Source: Paracoccus sigandri (lineage in GTDB: Bacteria; Pseudomonadota; Alphaproteobacteria; Rhodobacterales; Rhodobacteraceae). From it: DNA of 64,000 nt. How positions within the stretch are numbered: the first letter of the stretch is position 1; each line of letters begins with the position of its first letter. Under the pieces are notes generated by a model. The model ran no database searches. It was not told the origin of the DNA and was given only the letters and a program-made list of their open reading frames with translations. A program made the position numbers and the translations under genes. The stretch lies in contig NZ_QNRC01000002.1 in NCBI RefSeq assembly GCF_003709565.1, forward strand, positions 124,001 through 188,000, given 5' to 3'. Of the stretch, positions 19,962 through 28,442 are shown piece after piece.

Positions 19962-21572
<1,611 letters not shown>

Positions 21573-21605: not shown

Positions 21606-22283
21606 CTATTCGGCCCAATGGACGGTGGCCGCGTCCAGAAACGCCCGGATCGGCGCCTCGGTCGGGTCCAGCTTCTGCGCCCGTTCCAGCGCCTCGCGCT
21701 TTTCCGGGCCCATGATCAGCAGATGGAGATGCATCGCCTTCGACAGGACCGGCCGGGTCAGCGTCAGGCGCGGCTCCTCGGCGCCGGGCGCGCGGATCGC
21801 CATCAGCGGCGGCGCGTCCGAGGCCAGCGCCTCGGCCAGCCGGTCGGCGCCGGGAAACAGGCTGGCGGTGTGCATGTCGTTGCCCATGCCCAGCAGCGCC
21901 ACGGTGATCGGCAGATGCTCGGCGATGCGCTGCGACAGCACGTCCGCCGCGTCCTCGGGCCGCTCATGGCCGGTATAGAGGTCGATATGGCTGGCCGCCG
22001 CCGCCCGGTCGCGCAGCAGGTGCCGCCGCAGAAGCCGCCCGTTCGAGCGCTTGTGCTCGCCATCCACCCAGCGTTCGTCGCCCAGAAAGATCGTCACCCG
22101 CTCCCAGTCGATATCGGCGCCGCTCAGCGTCTCGAAGACCGGGATCGGGGTCGAGCCGCCGGGAACACACAGCGAGGCGGCCGGATTGGTGCGCAGATGC
22201 TGGCCCAGCTGGCCGGCGATCCGGTCGGCCAGCGACAGGGCCAGCATTTCCCGGTCGGGATATTCCTTGAATTCCATGCTCAT
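21606..22283 (-). CDS. pgl: 6-phosphogluconolactonase
   Basis: A 225-residue NagB/DevB-fold protein that hydrolyses 6-phosphogluconolactone made by Zwf. Signatures are LCVPGGSTPIPVFETLSG, IFLGDERWVDGEHKRSNGRLLR and LLGMGNDMHTASLFPGA. The start at MSMEFKEYPD overlaps the zwf stop as ATGA; an in-frame ATG two codons later is an alternative. The gene order zwf-pgl-pgi follows the pathway. Confidence 0.95.
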   Translation of the reverse strand: MSMEFKEYPDREMLALSLADRIAGQLGQHLRTNPAASLCVPGGSTPIPVFETLSGADIDWERVTIFLGDERWVDGEHKRSNGRLLRRHLLRDRAAAASHIDLYTGHERPEDAADVLSQRIAEHLPITVALLGMGNDMHTASLFPGADRLAEALASDAPPLMAIRAPGAEEPRLTLTRPVLSKAMHLHLLIMGPEKREALERAQKLDPTEAPIRAFLDAATVHWAE

Positions 22284-23731
22284 GCGCGAATCTCCCTCCA
22301 TCGGCGGTTGTCGCGATGCATCAGGCGCAGCGCCTCTTCGGGCCCCGAGGAGCCCGCGTCATAGGGTTCGGGCCGCTGCTTGCCTTCCTCCCATGCGGCG
22401 ATGATCGGATCGGTCCAGGCCCATGCCGCCTCGACCTCGTCACCGCGCATGAACAGCGTCTGGTTGCCGCGGATCACGTCCATGATCAGCCGTTCATAGG
22501 CGTCGGGCATGTCGGCGCCCTCGGGGCCAAGCGCGTCGGCGAAGGACATGTCCAGCGGCACCTGCACCAGCCGCATCCCGCCCGGACCCGGCTCCTTGAT
22601 CATCACCTTCAGGTTCATACCTTCGTTCGGCTGCAGGCGAATGACAAGCTCGTTCGCCTTGGGCTCGCCGCTGTCGTCGAAGATCGAATGCGGCGGCTCC
22701 TTGAAGGTGATGGCGATCTCGCTGGTGCGGGCGCGCAGCTTCTTGCCGGTGCGCAGGTAGAAGGGCGTGCCCTGCCAGCGCCAGTTCGAGATGCGGACCT
22801 TCATCGCGACATAGCTTTCGGTGCGCGAATCGGGGTTCTCGGCATCGGCCAGATAGCCCGCGCCCTCGCCGTCGGCCTGGTACTGGCCGCGCACGATGTC
22901 GACGGGCGCGACCGGCTCCAGCGCGCGGATCACCTTCAGCTTCTCGTCGCGCACCGCATCGGGGTCGAAGTGATAGGGCGGCTCCATCGCGATCAGGCAC
23001 AGAAGCTGCATCATGTGGTTCTGCACCATGTCGCGGATCGCGCCGGACTTGTCGTAATAGCTGCCGCGCCCGGCGACGCCCACGGTTTCGGCCACGGTGA
23101 TCTGCACATGGTCGATGAACTGCGCGTTCCACAGCGGCTCGAACAGGATATTGGCGAAGCGCACCGCCATCAGGTTCTGGACGGTCTCCTTGCCCAGGTA
23201 ATGGTCGATCCGGTAGATCTGATGCTCGTCGAAATGCCGCGCCAGCGTGGCGTTCAGCGCCCGCGCCGTCGCCAGGTCGCGGCCGAAGGGCTTTTCGACC
23301 ACGATGCGGCTGTCGGCATCGGCGATGCCGTGCCCCGCCAGCCTTTCGGCAATGTCGCCGAACAGCGCCGGCGCGACCGAGAAATAGAAGGCATGGACCA
23401 CGCCGCCGCGCATCTTCTGCTTCAGCGCCGGCCAGCCGTCCTCGCCCTTCGCGTCGATGGCCACATAGCTGAGGTGGCGCAGGAATTCCGTCAGTTGCGG
23501 ATCGCCCTTGGGCACGCTGCCGAATTCCCGGATCGCCGCCGCCGCCGCGTCGCGAAAGCCCGCGTCATCCTGCTCGGTCCGGGCAGCGCCGATGATCTGG
23601 GCGCCTTCGGGGATCTGACCCGCAACATAGCGCCGGAAAAGCCCCGGCAGGATCTTGCGCTGCGCCAGATCGCCGGTTGCACCAAAGATCACGAGATCGA
23701 ATTCATCGACCGGGATCACACGCGAGACCAT
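22280..23731 (-). CDS. zwf: glucose-6-phosphate 1-dehydrogenase
   Basis: A 483-residue enzyme oxidising glucose 6-phosphate to the lactone with reduction of NAD(P). The N-terminal coenzyme fold FDLVIFGATGDLAQRKILPGL and the active-site segment YRIDHYLGKETVQNL are diagnostic. The start is fixed by AAGGAGGA eight bases upstream. The promoter (TTGTTG, 17-base spacer, TATTCG) contains a LacI-type palindrome. It leads the operon zwf-pgl-pgi. Confidence 0.97.
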   Translation of the reverse strand: MVSRVIPVDEFDLVIFGATGDLAQRKILPGLFRRYVAGQIPEGAQIIGAARTEQDDAGFRDAAAAAIREFGSVPKGDPQLTEFLRHLSYVAIDAKGEDGWPALKQKMRGGVVHAFYFSVAPALFGDIAERLAGHGIADADSRIVVEKPFGRDLATARALNATLARHFDEHQIYRIDHYLGKETVQNLMAVRFANILFEPLWNAQFIDHVQITVAETVGVAGRGSYYDKSGAIRDMVQNHMMQLLCLIAMEPPYHFDPDAVRDEKLKVIRALEPVAPVDIVRGQYQADGEGAGYLADAENPDSRTESYVAMKVRISNWRWQGTPFYLRTGKKLRARTSEIAITFKEPPHSIFDDSGEPKANELVIRLQPNEGMNLKVMIKEPGPGGMRLVQVPLDMSFADALGPEGADMPDAYERLIMDVIRGNQTLFMRGDEVEAAWAWTDPIIAAWEEGKQRPEPYDAGSSGPEEALRLMHRDNRRWREIRA

Positions 23732-23756: not shown

Positions 23757-23785
23757 CGAATAACGCTTGTTAGCGATAACAACAA
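23757..23785 (-). promoter_or_regulatory. zwf promoter with LacI-type operator in the spacer
   Basis: On the minus strand: -35 TTGTTG (23780-23785), a 17-base spacer and -10 TATTCG (23757-23762). The palindrome TTGTTAGCGATAACAA (23767-23782) covers most of the spacer and half of the -35 box. Its core GTTAnCGnTAAC, with a central CpG, is the form of LacI/GntR-type operators and is repeated at the edd promoter. Confidence 0.7.
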
Positions 23786-23806
23786 GTCCTTCACCTTTCG
23801 GGTCCC

Positions 23807-24343
23807 CTATCCTTTCAGAGCCTTGGCCAGCCGCGGCAACCTTGCCCGTTTCAGCATCATCGCCAGCGCCATGTCGCCGCCCATCCGCGCCGCCTTGTCG
23901 CGCGCGGCCTGGGCTGCACGCTGGACCACCTGCTGGCCGTCCGCCAGCAGCTCCAGCAGGAAGGCGTCGGGATGGATCGCCCGCAGCCCCAGCGAGGCCA
24001 TCGCCCCGCGCGGAAAATCGCGCAGATTCGCGGTCACGATCAGGGCAGCCTTTCCGGCAAGCGCGGCCTCGACCACATGGGCATCGGCCGGGTCGGGCAG
24101 ATCGATCGCCAGGACCGTGCCCTGCGGCGCGACGCAGGCGGCCGGAAAGCGGTCCTGCAGCAGCGCGATCTCGGCCCCCGCAACGGAGCCCGCCTCGGGT
24201 CCCAGCCGGGCAGCGGCGTGGCGCCATTCGTCAAGGATGCGCTGCGACCACAGCGGCTGATAGAGCCCCGCCGCCGCGACATCGGCCAGGATCTCGCGCA
24301 GGATGGTCGGGAACAGGACATTGGCGTCCAGAACCGCCCTCAT
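23807..24343 (-). CDS. PIN domain protein (RSP_2648-type)
   Basis: A 178-residue PIN-fold protein. It starts MRAVLDANVLFPTILREILAD with the first catalytic aspartate D6; further acidic residues lie in DLPDPADAHVVEAAL, and NLRDFP supplies the C-terminal acidic group. This makes it a probable Mg-dependent ribonuclease, longer than a typical VapC toxin and without an antitoxin gene beside it. I recognise the pairing with the next gene as a conserved Rhodobacteraceae pair (RSP_2647/RSP_2648 in Rhodobacter sphaeroides). Its ATG overlaps the methyltransferase stop as ATGA. Confidence 0.82.
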   Translation of the reverse strand: MRAVLDANVLFPTILREILADVAAAGLYQPLWSQRILDEWRHAAARLGPEAGSVAGAEIALLQDRFPAACVAPQGTVLAIDLPDPADAHVVEAALAGKAALIVTANLRDFPRGAMASLGLRAIHPDAFLLELLADGQQVVQRAAQAARDKAARMGGDMALAMMLKRARLPRLAKALKG

Positions 24344-25536
24344 CCGTCCAGCCGGAAGAACAGCGCCTTCAGATATCCGGTCTCGGCCAGCTGCGGCAGC
24401 GTCGGATGGTCCGGCCCGGCCTGCCCGCTATGGATCAGCACGCCGCGCCGCCCGCCCCGGCCGATGCCGCGCGCGCTGGCATTGCGGAAGGCGGTCAGGT
24501 CGGCGGCATGGGAACAGCTGCACAGGCCCAGATAGCCCCCCGGCGCCACCAGCGGCGCGGCCAGCTTCGCCACCCGCTCATAGGCGCGCAGCCCCGCCTC
24601 CAGCGCCTGTTTCGAGGGCGCGAAGGCCGGCGGATCGCAGATCACCAGATCGAAACGGCGATCCCCGGTGGCCAGCTCCTCCAGCGCCTCGAACGCGTCC
24701 GAGCGCATCACCGCCAGCCGCGCGCCCGCGCCCATCGCCCGCGCGCCCCCGGCGGCCAGTTCCAGCGCGGCGGCGCTGCCATCGACGCAGGTGGCATGAT
24801 CCGCCCCCGCCGCCAGCGCGGCCAGGCCGAAGCCGCCGACATGGCTGAACACGTCCAGCACCCGCGCACCCATCGCCAGGCGCTGCGCGAAGGCGTGGTT
24901 GGGGCGCTGGTCATAAAACAGCCCGGTCTTCTGCCCGCCCAACAGGTCGGCCAGGTAGATGGCGCCGTTCATCGCGACCTCTACCGGCGCCTCGGGCGCG
25001 ATGCCCCGCAGCACCTCCATCCGCTCGTCCAGCCCCTCCAGCCCGCGCGCGCGGCCCTGGCCGTTCAGGATCACCGTCCCGACCCCCGCGACCTCGGCCA
25101 GCGCATCGGCGATCCGGTCGGCCATCGCATCCGCCCAGGCCGCATTGGGCTGGATCACCGCGGCATCGCCGAAACGGTCGATGACCAGGCCGGGCAAGCC
25201 GTCGGCCTCGGCATGGGCCAGCCGGTAGAAGGGCTGGTCGTAAAGCCGCTGCCGCATCGCCAGCGCCCGGCCGATCCGCGCCCGCAGCCAGGCGTCGTCG
25301 ATCCGCGCCCCCGCATCGGGGTCCATCACCCGCGCCACGATCTTCGAGCCGGGATTGACCGTCACCAGCCCCAGCGGCCGGCGCTCGGCATCCTCCAGCA
25401 CCGCGAAGCCGCCGGCCGGTATGTTGCGCGTCCTGCGGTCCAGCACCGCCTCGTCGGCGAAGACCCAGGGAAAACCATGTCGGATCGCCTGCGGCTTCGA
25501 TTTCGGGCGCAGGCGGATGACGGGCAGTTCGCTCAT
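24340..25536 (-). CDS. class I SAM-dependent RNA methyltransferase, RlmI-like (RSP_2647-type)
   Basis: A 398-residue protein with an N-terminal PUA-like part (VIRLRPKSKPQAIRHGFPWVFADE) and a C-terminal Rossmann methyltransferase. The SAM site is VLDVFSHVGGFGLAALAAGA and the catalytic segment is LVICDPPAFAPSKQAL. The layout matches 23S rRNA cytosine-C5 methyltransferases of the RlmI group, although the target base is not known here. The start follows the homology. It is divergent from edd, 132 bases apart, and is co-transcribed with the PIN gene. Confidence 0.85.
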   Translation of the reverse strand: MSELPVIRLRPKSKPQAIRHGFPWVFADEAVLDRRTRNIPAGGFAVLEDAERRPLGLVTVNPGSKIVARVMDPDAGARIDDAWLRARIGRALAMRQRLYDQPFYRLAHAEADGLPGLVIDRFGDAAVIQPNAAWADAMADRIADALAEVAGVGTVILNGQGRARGLEGLDERMEVLRGIAPEAPVEVAMNGAIYLADLLGGQKTGLFYDQRPNHAFAQRLAMGARVLDVFSHVGGFGLAALAAGADHATCVDGSAAALELAAGGARAMGAGARLAVMRSDAFEALEELATGDRRFDLVICDPPAFAPSKQALEAGLRAYERVAKLAAPLVAPGGYLGLCSCSHAADLTAFRNASARGIGRGGRRGVLIHSGQAGPDHPTLPQLAETGYLKALFFRLDG

Positions 25537-25613
25537 GTCAGCATTCCTTTCCCCGCCGATCTGACACGGGCGCCCGCAAGGCACAAGCACCCCGCGGCCG
25601 ATGACGGCGGCGG

Positions 25614-25642
25614 TTGAACCGTTAACGCTAACGGTCTATATT
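25614..25642 (+). promoter_or_regulatory. edd promoter with LacI-type operator in the spacer
   Basis: Plus strand: -35 TTGAAC (25614-25619), a 17-base spacer and -10 TATATT (25637-25642), about 27 bases ahead of the edd ATG. The palindrome CCGTTAACGCTAACGG (25619-25634) fills the spacer and shares the core GTTAnCGnTAAC with the zwf site. The methyltransferase/PIN operon starts 78 bases to the left and may also respond. Confidence 0.75.
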
Positions 25643-25668: not shown

Positions 25669-27471
25669 ATGTCCCTTCACGCCACGATCGACCGCGTCAC
25701 CGACAGGATCCGCGAGCGTTCGGCGAAAACCCGCGCCGCCTATCTTGCCAAGATCGCCCGCGCCGCCGAGGACGGCCCGCGACGGGCGCATCTGTCCTGC
25801 GGCAACCAGGCCCATGCCTATGCGGCCATGCCCGACAAGGAGGACATGGCGAGGACGCGCAAGCCCAATATCGGCATCGTGACCGCCTATAACGACATGC
25901 TCTCGGCGCATCAGCCCTATGAGCGGTTTCCCGACATCATCCGCCGCGCCGGCCATGCGGCGGGGGCGACGGTGCAGGTCGCGGGCGGCGTGCCGGCCAT
26001 GTGCGACGGCGTCACGCAGGGCCGCGCGGGGATGGAGCTGTCGCTGTTTTCCCGCGACGTGATCGCGCTGGCCGCCGGGGTGGGGCTGTCGCATGACTGT
26101 TTCGACGCGGCGCTTTACCTGGGGGTCTGCGACAAGATCGTGCCGGGGCTGGTCATCGCGGCGGCGACCTTCGGCCATGTCCCCGCGGTCTTCATCCCGG
26201 CCGGCCCGATGCCCTCGGGCCTGCCCAATGACGAAAAATCCAGGGTCCGCCAGCAATTCGCCACCGGAGAGGTCGGCCGCGACGCGCTGATGGCGGCCGA
26301 GATGGCCTCCTATCACAGCCCCGGCACCTGCACCTTCTACGGCACCGCGAATTCCAACCAGATGCTGATGGAGTTCATGGGGTTGCACCTGCCCGGCTCC
26401 AGCTTCGTCAACCCGAACACGCCCCTGCGCGAGGCGCTGACGGTGGCCGGCGTCCAGCGCGCGGCGGCCATCACCCGGCTGGGCAACGACTTCCTGCCCG
26501 CGGGCGAGGTCCTGGACGAGCGCGCCTTCGTCAACGGCATCGTCGGGCTGATGGCGACGGGCGGCTCGACCAACCTGGTGCTGCACCTGCCCGCCATGGC
26601 CCGCGCGGCCGGCGTGCTGATCGACATCGAGGATTTCCACGACATCTCGGAATCGGTGCCGCTGATGGCGCGCGTCTATCCCAACGGGCTGGCCGACGTG
26701 AACCATTTCCACGCCGCCGGGGGCCTGGGCTACATGATCGGGCAGCTGCTGGAGGCCGGGCTGCTGCATCCCGACGTCAAGACCATCAACGGCACCGGCC
26801 TCGACGGCTACACCGCCGAACCCAAGCTGGACGGCGACCGGATCCGCTGGGAGGCCGGGGCAAGCGAGACGCTGAACGACAAGATCCTGCGCCCCGCCAC
26901 CGATCCCTTCGCGCAGACCGGCGGGCTGAAGCAGCTCCAGGGCAACCTGGGCCGGGGCGTCATCAAGGTCAGCGCCGTCGCCCCCGAACGCCATGTCATC
27001 GAGGCGAAGGCCCGCGTATTCAGCGACCAGGAACAGGTCAAGGCCGCCTTCAAGGCCGGCGAATTCACCGAGGACACGATCGTCGTCGTCCGCTTCCAGG
27101 GCCCGCGCGCCAACGGCATGCCGGAACTGCATTCGCTGACGCCGACGCTGGCGGTGCTGCAGGATCGCGGGCTGAAGGTGGCGCTGCTGACCGACGGGCG
27201 GATGTCGGGCGCCTCGGGCAAGGTGCCGGCGGCGATCCATGTCTCGCCCGAGGCTTCGGTTGGCGGGCCGCTGGCGCGGGTCCGCGACGGCGACGTGATC
27301 CGCCTCGACGCGGTGACCGGCCGGATCGACTGCCTGGCGGCGGATTTCGACGACCGCCAGCCCGCCGCCTTCGACCCCTCGACCAGCTCCGAAGGCATGG
27401 GCCGAGAGATGTTCGCGGCCTTCCGCGCCGTCGCCGGCCCCGCGACCGAAGGCGCCGCCGTCGTCGTCTGA
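25669..27471 (+). CDS. edd: phosphogluconate dehydratase (Entner-Doudoroff)
   Basis: A 600-residue IlvD/Edd-family iron-sulfur dehydratase converting 6-phosphogluconate to 2-keto-3-deoxy-6-phosphogluconate. Visible family marks are [38 protein letters not shown] (cluster cysteine), [21 protein letters not shown] (cluster cysteine), [13 protein letters not shown] and [19 protein letters not shown]. The start has AGAGGAG upstream. KDPG aldolase (eda), which often follows edd, is not in the 100 bases downstream nor elsewhere in this window. Confidence 0.96.
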
Positions 27472-27491
27472 TACCCATCCCAACCCGGCCG

Positions 27492-27571
27492 CTTTCATCT
27501 TGGCGAAAATATCCCGGGGGAAGCCCTCATGACCCCGTCGAGGGGTCATGAGGGCTGGGGGCAGAGCCCCC
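27492..27571 (-). repeat. dispersed hairpin repeat, copy D (between convergent genes)
   Basis: Minus strand: GGGGGCTCTGCCCCC hairpin, a perfect 15-base-pair hairpin (AGCCCTCATGACCCC, loop TCGAC, GGGGTCATGAGGGCT), then TCCCCCGGGATATTTTCGCC and AAGATGAAAG. This is the longest copy, lying between the convergent edd and lysR stops. Confidence 0.75.
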
Positions 27572-27575
27572 GGGC

Positions 27576-28442
27576 TCAGGCCGCCGCCGCCGCGACCTCG
27601 CAGACCGCGCGCCGCAGATAGCCCGCGAAATCGGCCGCCTCGCGCCGGGCCGGGCCATCGGCGACATAGACGTTCAGCCAGGTCGGCGGCAGGGGCGGCA
27701 GCGCGCCGCCATGCTCGACCGGCTCCAGCCCCGACTGGGAAATGCCGCGCGGCAGGATGGTGACGCCCAGATCCGCCGCCGCGCTGACCTTCCAGGTGTC
27801 GCTGCCGCCATCGGCCACGCCCTGGACCCATTCGATCCCGCAGCGATCCAGCGCCGCCATGCCGATCGGGTAATAGGCGCAATGCGGCGAATTCGCGATC
27901 GGCAGCGGCCGCTGGGTCCAGGCCTGGCCGCCGATCGCGCCGAACCAGGCCAGGTCGACCTTGGCCAGGTGGATCGCCCCCGGCGGCGCCTCGAATTCCG
28001 TGGTCAGGATCACGTCATGGTCGCCGCGCTTCATCTGCTCGCGCAGGTCCTTGCTGCGGGCATCGTTGATGATCAGCGCGACGGAGGGGTTGTTCTGGCG
28101 GAAATCCCGTACCGCCTGCGCGACCTTGGCGAACAGCCAGTCGCTGGTCAGCCCGACGCGCAGCCGCCGCTCGGGACGTTCGTCGGTGAAGCGCGCCAGG
28201 ATCGAATCGTTCAGCGCCACCAGCTTGCGGCCCTCGATCAGAAGCTCGGTGGCGAAGTCGGACAGCACCACGCCGCGCCCCTGCTTGACCAGCATCGGCT
28301 CGCGGAACAGCTCCTCCAGCCGCTTCATCTGCATCGACAGCGCGCTTTGCGTCATGTGCAGCGTCTCGGCCGCGCGGGTGACCGAGCCGTATTCGGCCAC
28401 CGCCTGCAACGAGCGGATCGTGGCGATGTCGAGATTTCGCAT
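27576..28442 (-). CDS. LysR-family transcriptional regulator
   Basis: A 288-residue LTTR. The N-terminal winged helix-turn-helix is clear (LDIATIRSLQAVAEYGSVTRAAETLHMTQSALSMQMKRLEE), and the rest is a periplasmic-binding-protein-like effector domain. It is transcribed divergently from a DUF1127 gene. The shared intergenic region carries a T-N11-A palindrome (28515-28529), suggesting that it regulates itself and the DUF1127 gene. Effector unknown. Its leader, including the start codon, is nearly the same as that of the DUF1127 gene. Confidence 0.88.
   Translation of the reverse strand: MRNLDIATIRSLQAVAEYGSVTRAAETLHMTQSALSMQMKRLEELFREPMLVKQGRGVVLSDFATELLIEGRKLVALNDSILARFTDERPERRLRVGLTSDWLFAKVAQAVRDFRQNNPSVALIINDARSKDLREQMKRGDHDVILTTEFEAPPGAIHLAKVDLAWFGAIGGQAWTQRPLPIANSPHCAYYPIGMAALDRCGIEWVQGVADGGSDTWKVSAAADLGVTILPRGISQSGLEPVEHGGALPPLPPTWLNVYVADGPARREAADFAGYLRRAVCEVAAAAA

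Follow-up and report, generated by a model that had tools for sequence, protein, structure and literature searches.

Genes of the locus

The window, the whole stretch of 64,000 nucleotides of Paracoccus sigandri DNA that was analysed, contains the minus-strand genes zwf-pgl-pgi and the plus-strand gene edd, with an RNA methyltransferase gene and a PIN-domain gene between their upstream regions (Table 1). Gene identities were assigned from NCBIfam equivalog scores over the cut-off. The ATG at 23731 was taken as the zwf start, as it gives the conserved beginning MVSRVIPVD and is preceded by AGGAGG; the GTG at 23794, which opens a longer ORF and would put the operator described below inside the coding sequence, was not taken as the start. 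A LysR-type regulator gene follows edd on the opposite strand (27471-28442) and eda is not there; it sits on another contig (C51).

Table 1. Genes, promoters and predicted operators of the zwf-edd region (positions in the window)
Feature	Coordinates	Strand	Details
pgi, glucose-6-phosphate isomerase	19962..21572	minus	NF001211, over cut-off
pgl, 6-phosphogluconolactonase	21606..22301	minus	TIGR01198, over cut-off
zwf, glucose-6-phosphate dehydrogenase, first gene of zwf-pgl-pgi	22280..23731	minus	TIGR00871, 559.9 bits, over cut-off
zwf promoter	23757..23785	minus	-35 TTGTTG (23785-23780), 17-bp spacer, -10 TATTCG (23762-23757)
Predicted CceR operator of zwf	23769..23780	minus	GTTAGCGATAAC; coding strand GTTATCGCTAAC; 37 bp upstream of zwf ATG (23731)
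RNA methyltransferase gene (RSP_2647 family) and PIN-domain gene (RSP_2648 family), between the operators	23807..25536	minus	NF046099, NF046100, over cut-off
Promoter-like element of the methyltransferase gene	25558..25586	minus	TTGTGC (25586-25581), 17 bp, CAGATC (25563-25558)
edd promoter	25614..25642	plus	-35 TTGAAC (25614-25619), 17-bp spacer, -10 TATATT (25637-25642)
Predicted CceR operator of edd	25621..25632	plus	GTTAACGCTAAC; 36 bp upstream of edd ATG (25669)
edd, 6-phosphogluconate dehydratase	25669..27471	plus	TIGR01196, 941.6 bits, over cut-off

Palindromes within the zwf and edd promoters

Two palindromes, 1852 bp apart, were located upstream of zwf and edd where an earlier note on this DNA had placed them. 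The promoters at both genes have the form TTGnnn-N17-TAnnnn, and a mechanical scan returned that of edd (TTGAAC-17-TATATT, 25614-25642) as the sole sigma-70-like promoter in 2 kb. The same note had called both promoters recognisable, and their key bases proved to be kept at fixed spacing across the genus: with the operator as the anchor, the edd promoters of 57/57 Paracoccus genomes carry TTG at -7 to -5 with TA at +16/+17, and in the zwf promoters TTG occupies -5 to -3 (42/43) and TA occupies +18/+19 (41/43). The statement that the palindrome fills the 17-base spacer was exact for edd but one base off for zwf, where the operator is shifted upstream by 2 bp relative to its place in the edd promoter and so includes the final base of the -35 hexamer. 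An operator between -35 and -10 would have the geometry of repression, judging from established operator positions.

The window contains 2 matches to GTTANCGNTAAC with at most one mismatch, as against 0.17 expected from shuffles. In the whole 4.9-Mb genome, exact GTTAnCGnTAAC occurs four times (twice for the reversed pattern), namely at zwf, at edd, upstream of a sugar-binding protein gene that resembles part of an alpha-glucoside transporter (contig C83) and in the gap that separates a GH13 glucosidase-like gene from a glgB-like gene (contig C1).

Conservation of the sites

Upstream regions were compared among 61 Paracoccus genomes, 57 of which have the edd start; zwf was counted in 60. The earlier note had proposed such a comparison. 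At edd the site is exact in 57/57 genomes, and at zwf it is exact in 36 of the 60, has one mismatch in 7 and two mismatches, at the same place, in 1 (G021). The zwf operator is absent in the remaining 16 (e.g. L111, L116, L121, L124-L126 and L128-L132); among these, zwf and edd are non-neighbours in ten and edd is missing in three. Outside Paracoccus, one genome was taken from each of 28 other genera of the family; 25 of these have an exact edd site, 2 have one that deviates by a single base and 1 has none. Such conservation goes far beyond chance.

Since the reversed pattern gives two matches, one or two exact sites per genome would be expected by chance, and the palindromes might have arisen in this way in a promoter-rich stretch. 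We assign this explanation a vanishingly small probability: it is refuted by the conservation (57/57 and 43/60) and conflicts with the fixed spacing to the promoter hexamers, as well as with the exact sites of P. denitrificans, 6/6 of which lie at glucose, gluconate or glycogen genes.

CceR as the predicted regulator

GapR (RSP_1663) was predicted in 13/13 Rhodobacteraceae studied, with targets that include zwf-pgl-pgi and edd-eda (PMC4052901), and the motif [AGT]GTT-N6-8-AAC[ACT] was inferred for RSP_1663 (PMC4344238). CceR, the present name of this protein, senses gluconate-6P (6-phosphogluconate), as cited in PMC5507952. A cceR deletion strain of P. denitrificans DSM 413, grown on glyoxylate, had raised levels of Zwf, Pgl, Pgi, Edd, Eda and the gluconate transporter (PMC11323563). 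Both palindromes of the window agree with the core of this motif, with GTT-N6-AAC present in TGTTATCGCTAACA at zwf and in CGTTAACGCTAACG at edd; the outer bases fit at zwf, whereas at edd they are C and G, one base off on each side. We conclude that both palindromes are, with a probability of about 0.94, operators of CceR, as predicted here for this species. This LacI-family protein governs central carbon metabolism in Rhodobacteraceae, as the master switch of the family between sugar breakdown and sugar synthesis. As CceR/GapR was described in Rhodobacteraceae in 2014-2015 and followed by a deletion test in P. denitrificans in 2024, the regulator and its site are already known, and the observation is real but ordinary.

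The genome contains 17 LacI genes, among which L007 is the candidate CceR ortholog; it sits on contig C21, in accordance with the proposal that the repressor gene lies outside the window. Its product is 82–83% identical to that of the single LacI gene of three genomes (G044, G053 and G054), and the edd operators of all three are exact. Exact GTTAnCGnTAAC was also found just upstream of L007 orthologs in 19/32 non-Paracoccus loci, and the genomes of Sinirhodobacter and Gemmobacter each have just three exact sites, at zwf, edd and the CceR gene. The sites, their overlap with the promoters, their conservation and this association of the motif with the CceR gene are established here. The orthology of L007 and RSP_1663 is suggested by conservation, the single-LacI genomes, the self-sites and the work on P. 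denitrificans. The closest solved structure to the L007 product is 3kjx, a LacI-family protein named by family only.

In P. sigandri itself the site upstream of cceR has been lost and only a CGCTAAC half-site remains (L082); the P. denitrificans group has a one-mismatch site about 23 bp upstream of the cceR start. The cceR gene of this species (L082, 8255-10506) adjoins an integrase-like gene and a tRNA-like stretch.

With 17 LacI genes in the genome, another repressor that recognizes the same motif might control zwf and edd, for example L008, which lies near gluconate genes on contig C2, with gntP about 8 kb away; the operator of E. coli GntR is moreover very similar. However, the remaining 16 genes are not general in the genus, the edd operator is still exact in G044, G053 and G054, which have only CceR, and self-sites occur upstream of the CceR orthologs, so that we consider another LacI repressor very improbable. 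The view of the earlier note that one LacI-family repressor serves zwf-pgl-pgi and edd is supported, and CceR supplies the name that had been left open there. From sequence alone, all examined Paracoccus genomes with an edd start are seen to have one repressor site within the edd promoter.

The methyltransferase/PIN operon

The methyltransferase/PIN operon had been put forward as a third target, and as a CceR target it found no support and was rejected on three grounds: i) it has its own promoter-like element, which stands out as a conserved block when 23 intergenic regions are aligned and does not keep a constant distance to the edd operator (about 35 bp in this genome), ii) within Paracoccus the operator and the methyltransferase start are separated by anything between 72 and 171 bp, and iii) the methyltransferase gene is parted from the edd operator by a different gene in Gemmobacter and Sinirhodobacter.

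The operon would again become a third target if one tetramer looped both operators and enclosed it in the loop, an arrangement that might account for zwf and edd adjoining in most Paracoccus genomes. Against this, exact sites are kept where zwf and edd are far apart (G014, G018, G019, G029 and G043), edd sites are kept where zwf has none, the element and variable distance noted above belong to the methyltransferase gene itself, and CceR, with a length of 341 aa, would not be longer than a dimeric LacI-family member. Looping is accordingly rated as extremely unlikely, and separate binding of CceR at each promoter is preferred.

Operator asymmetry in Paracoccus

On the coding strand, all 93 exact zwf and edd sites of Paracoccus read GTTA[ATC]CGCTAAC, and the symmetric form GTTAGCGCTAAC occurs in 0/93. 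Read inwards, the gene-proximal half-site is always GTTAGC and the other half is GTTA[A/T/C]C, never GTTAGC. Changes among A, T and C were counted on trees, with at least 11 for 30 edd loci and at least 7 for 27 zwf loci (at least 18 in all). Outside Paracoccus the perfect palindrome GTTAGCGCTAAC is found in 22/25 exact edd sites, and the DNA-binding region of CceR looks alike in Paracoccus and the other genera.

This symmetry rule of the Paracoccus operators is a new detail beyond the known CceR sites and can be measured directly in vitro. Tentatively, the zwf and edd operators could be held off symmetry by selection, either for a sub-maximal, oriented grip of the repressor or for promoter function, although we hold this explanation to be somewhat doubtful. 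Avoidance of a restriction site (AGCGCT) explains the difference poorly, because depletion is nearly equal in the genera that keep the symmetric site (0.41 of expectation in Paracoccus, 0.24 in the window and 0.49 in the other genera with the symmetric site).

Targets beyond zwf and edd

P. denitrificans DSM 413 has six exact sites, located upstream of zwf, edd, eda, gntP (gluconate permease), gnd and glgP, with glgP and eda named from translated sequence. In the genome under study, scanned for the motif near eda and gluconate genes as had been proposed, one-mismatch sites lie upstream of eda (C51), gnd (C25), gntP (C2) and a fructokinase-like gene (C28), and pckA (C61), which is on a different contig from cceR, has two in tandem, 19 bp apart and about 100-130 bp upstream. 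In the known CceR/GapR regulon pckA, a gluconeogenic gene, is a target that is activated from upstream. Taken together, one-mismatch sites show no enrichment in the whole genome (27 vs 61 for the reversed pattern), and the extra targets are therefore candidates only, supported by gene identity. Since sites also occur at eda, gnd, the gluconate permease gene and pckA, the CceR regulon is predicted to be global, and the local Entner-Doudoroff regulon of the earlier note has to be widened. Candidate targets added here are gnd, gntP and glgP in P. denitrificans and alpha-glucan genes in this genome.

CceR may control glycogen breakdown. An exact CceR-type site lies upstream of the glycogen phosphorylase gene of P. 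denitrificans DSM 413 (L306, 1501-1512), and another lies between the glgB-like gene and the GH13 gene of this genome (L001). The exact site at the sugar-binding protein gene lies upstream of an alpha-glucoside-type transporter gene (L004, 1501-1512), with no LacI gene on its contig. In relatives (L309-L331) the transporter site is present with one mismatch in 6/22 and absent in most, and it is only a lead. The AglR motif tcAAAGCGCTTTga (PMC4052901) was not found at the two alpha-glucan sites, which read GTTAnCGnTAAC. A one-mismatch site, GTTAGCGCAAAC, was seen about 250 bp upstream of sdhC (L286, 1564-1575); for R. sphaeroides, CceR has been predicted to act on succinate dehydrogenase (PMC4344238).

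Proposed mechanism

During growth on acids, a CceR dimer on each operator would block RNA polymerase sterically, rather than through a loop, and zwf-pgl-pgi and edd would be off. Upon entry of sugar or gluconate, 6-phosphogluconate, which Zwf/Pgl produce and Edd consumes, would bind CceR and release it, and the two transcription units would then be turned on together. The effector is taken from PMC5507952 and the derepression from the work on P. denitrificans (PMC11323563).

Comparison with known systems

The sites described here resemble the CceR/GapR regulon (RSP_1663; PMC4052901, PMC4344238, PMC11323563) in the motif, in the targets zwf-pgl-pgi and edd and the candidate targets eda and pckA, and in the predicted repression of the Entner-Doudoroff route by a LacI-family regulator. 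They differ in that i) cceR of this species is without a site of its own, ii) a 1.9-kb interval holding the methyltransferase/PIN pair separates zwf and edd, iii) the operators of this species are asymmetric, and iv) exact sites occur at an alpha-glucoside-type transporter gene and in the glgB/GH13 gap. E. coli GntR is likewise a LacI-family protein of the phosphogluconate/gluconate pathway, with a near-identical recognition helix (MTVSR) and a GTTA...TAAC operator. However, the target set of CceR is global, and L007 scores below the curated NCBIfam GntR/IdnR equivalog cut-offs (181 of 433 bits; 286 of 400 bits).

In gamma- and beta-proteobacteria, zwf, edd and eda are under the control of HexR, but this protein belongs to the RpiR family, senses KDPG, uses another motif and is not the alphaproteobacterial regulator (PMC5507952), in line with its dismissal for these genes in the earlier note. 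PckR of Rhizobiales and GluR of Caulobacter, like CceR, are LacI-family global regulators of the same pathway, although they are non-orthologous to GapR and recognize different motifs (PMC4052901).
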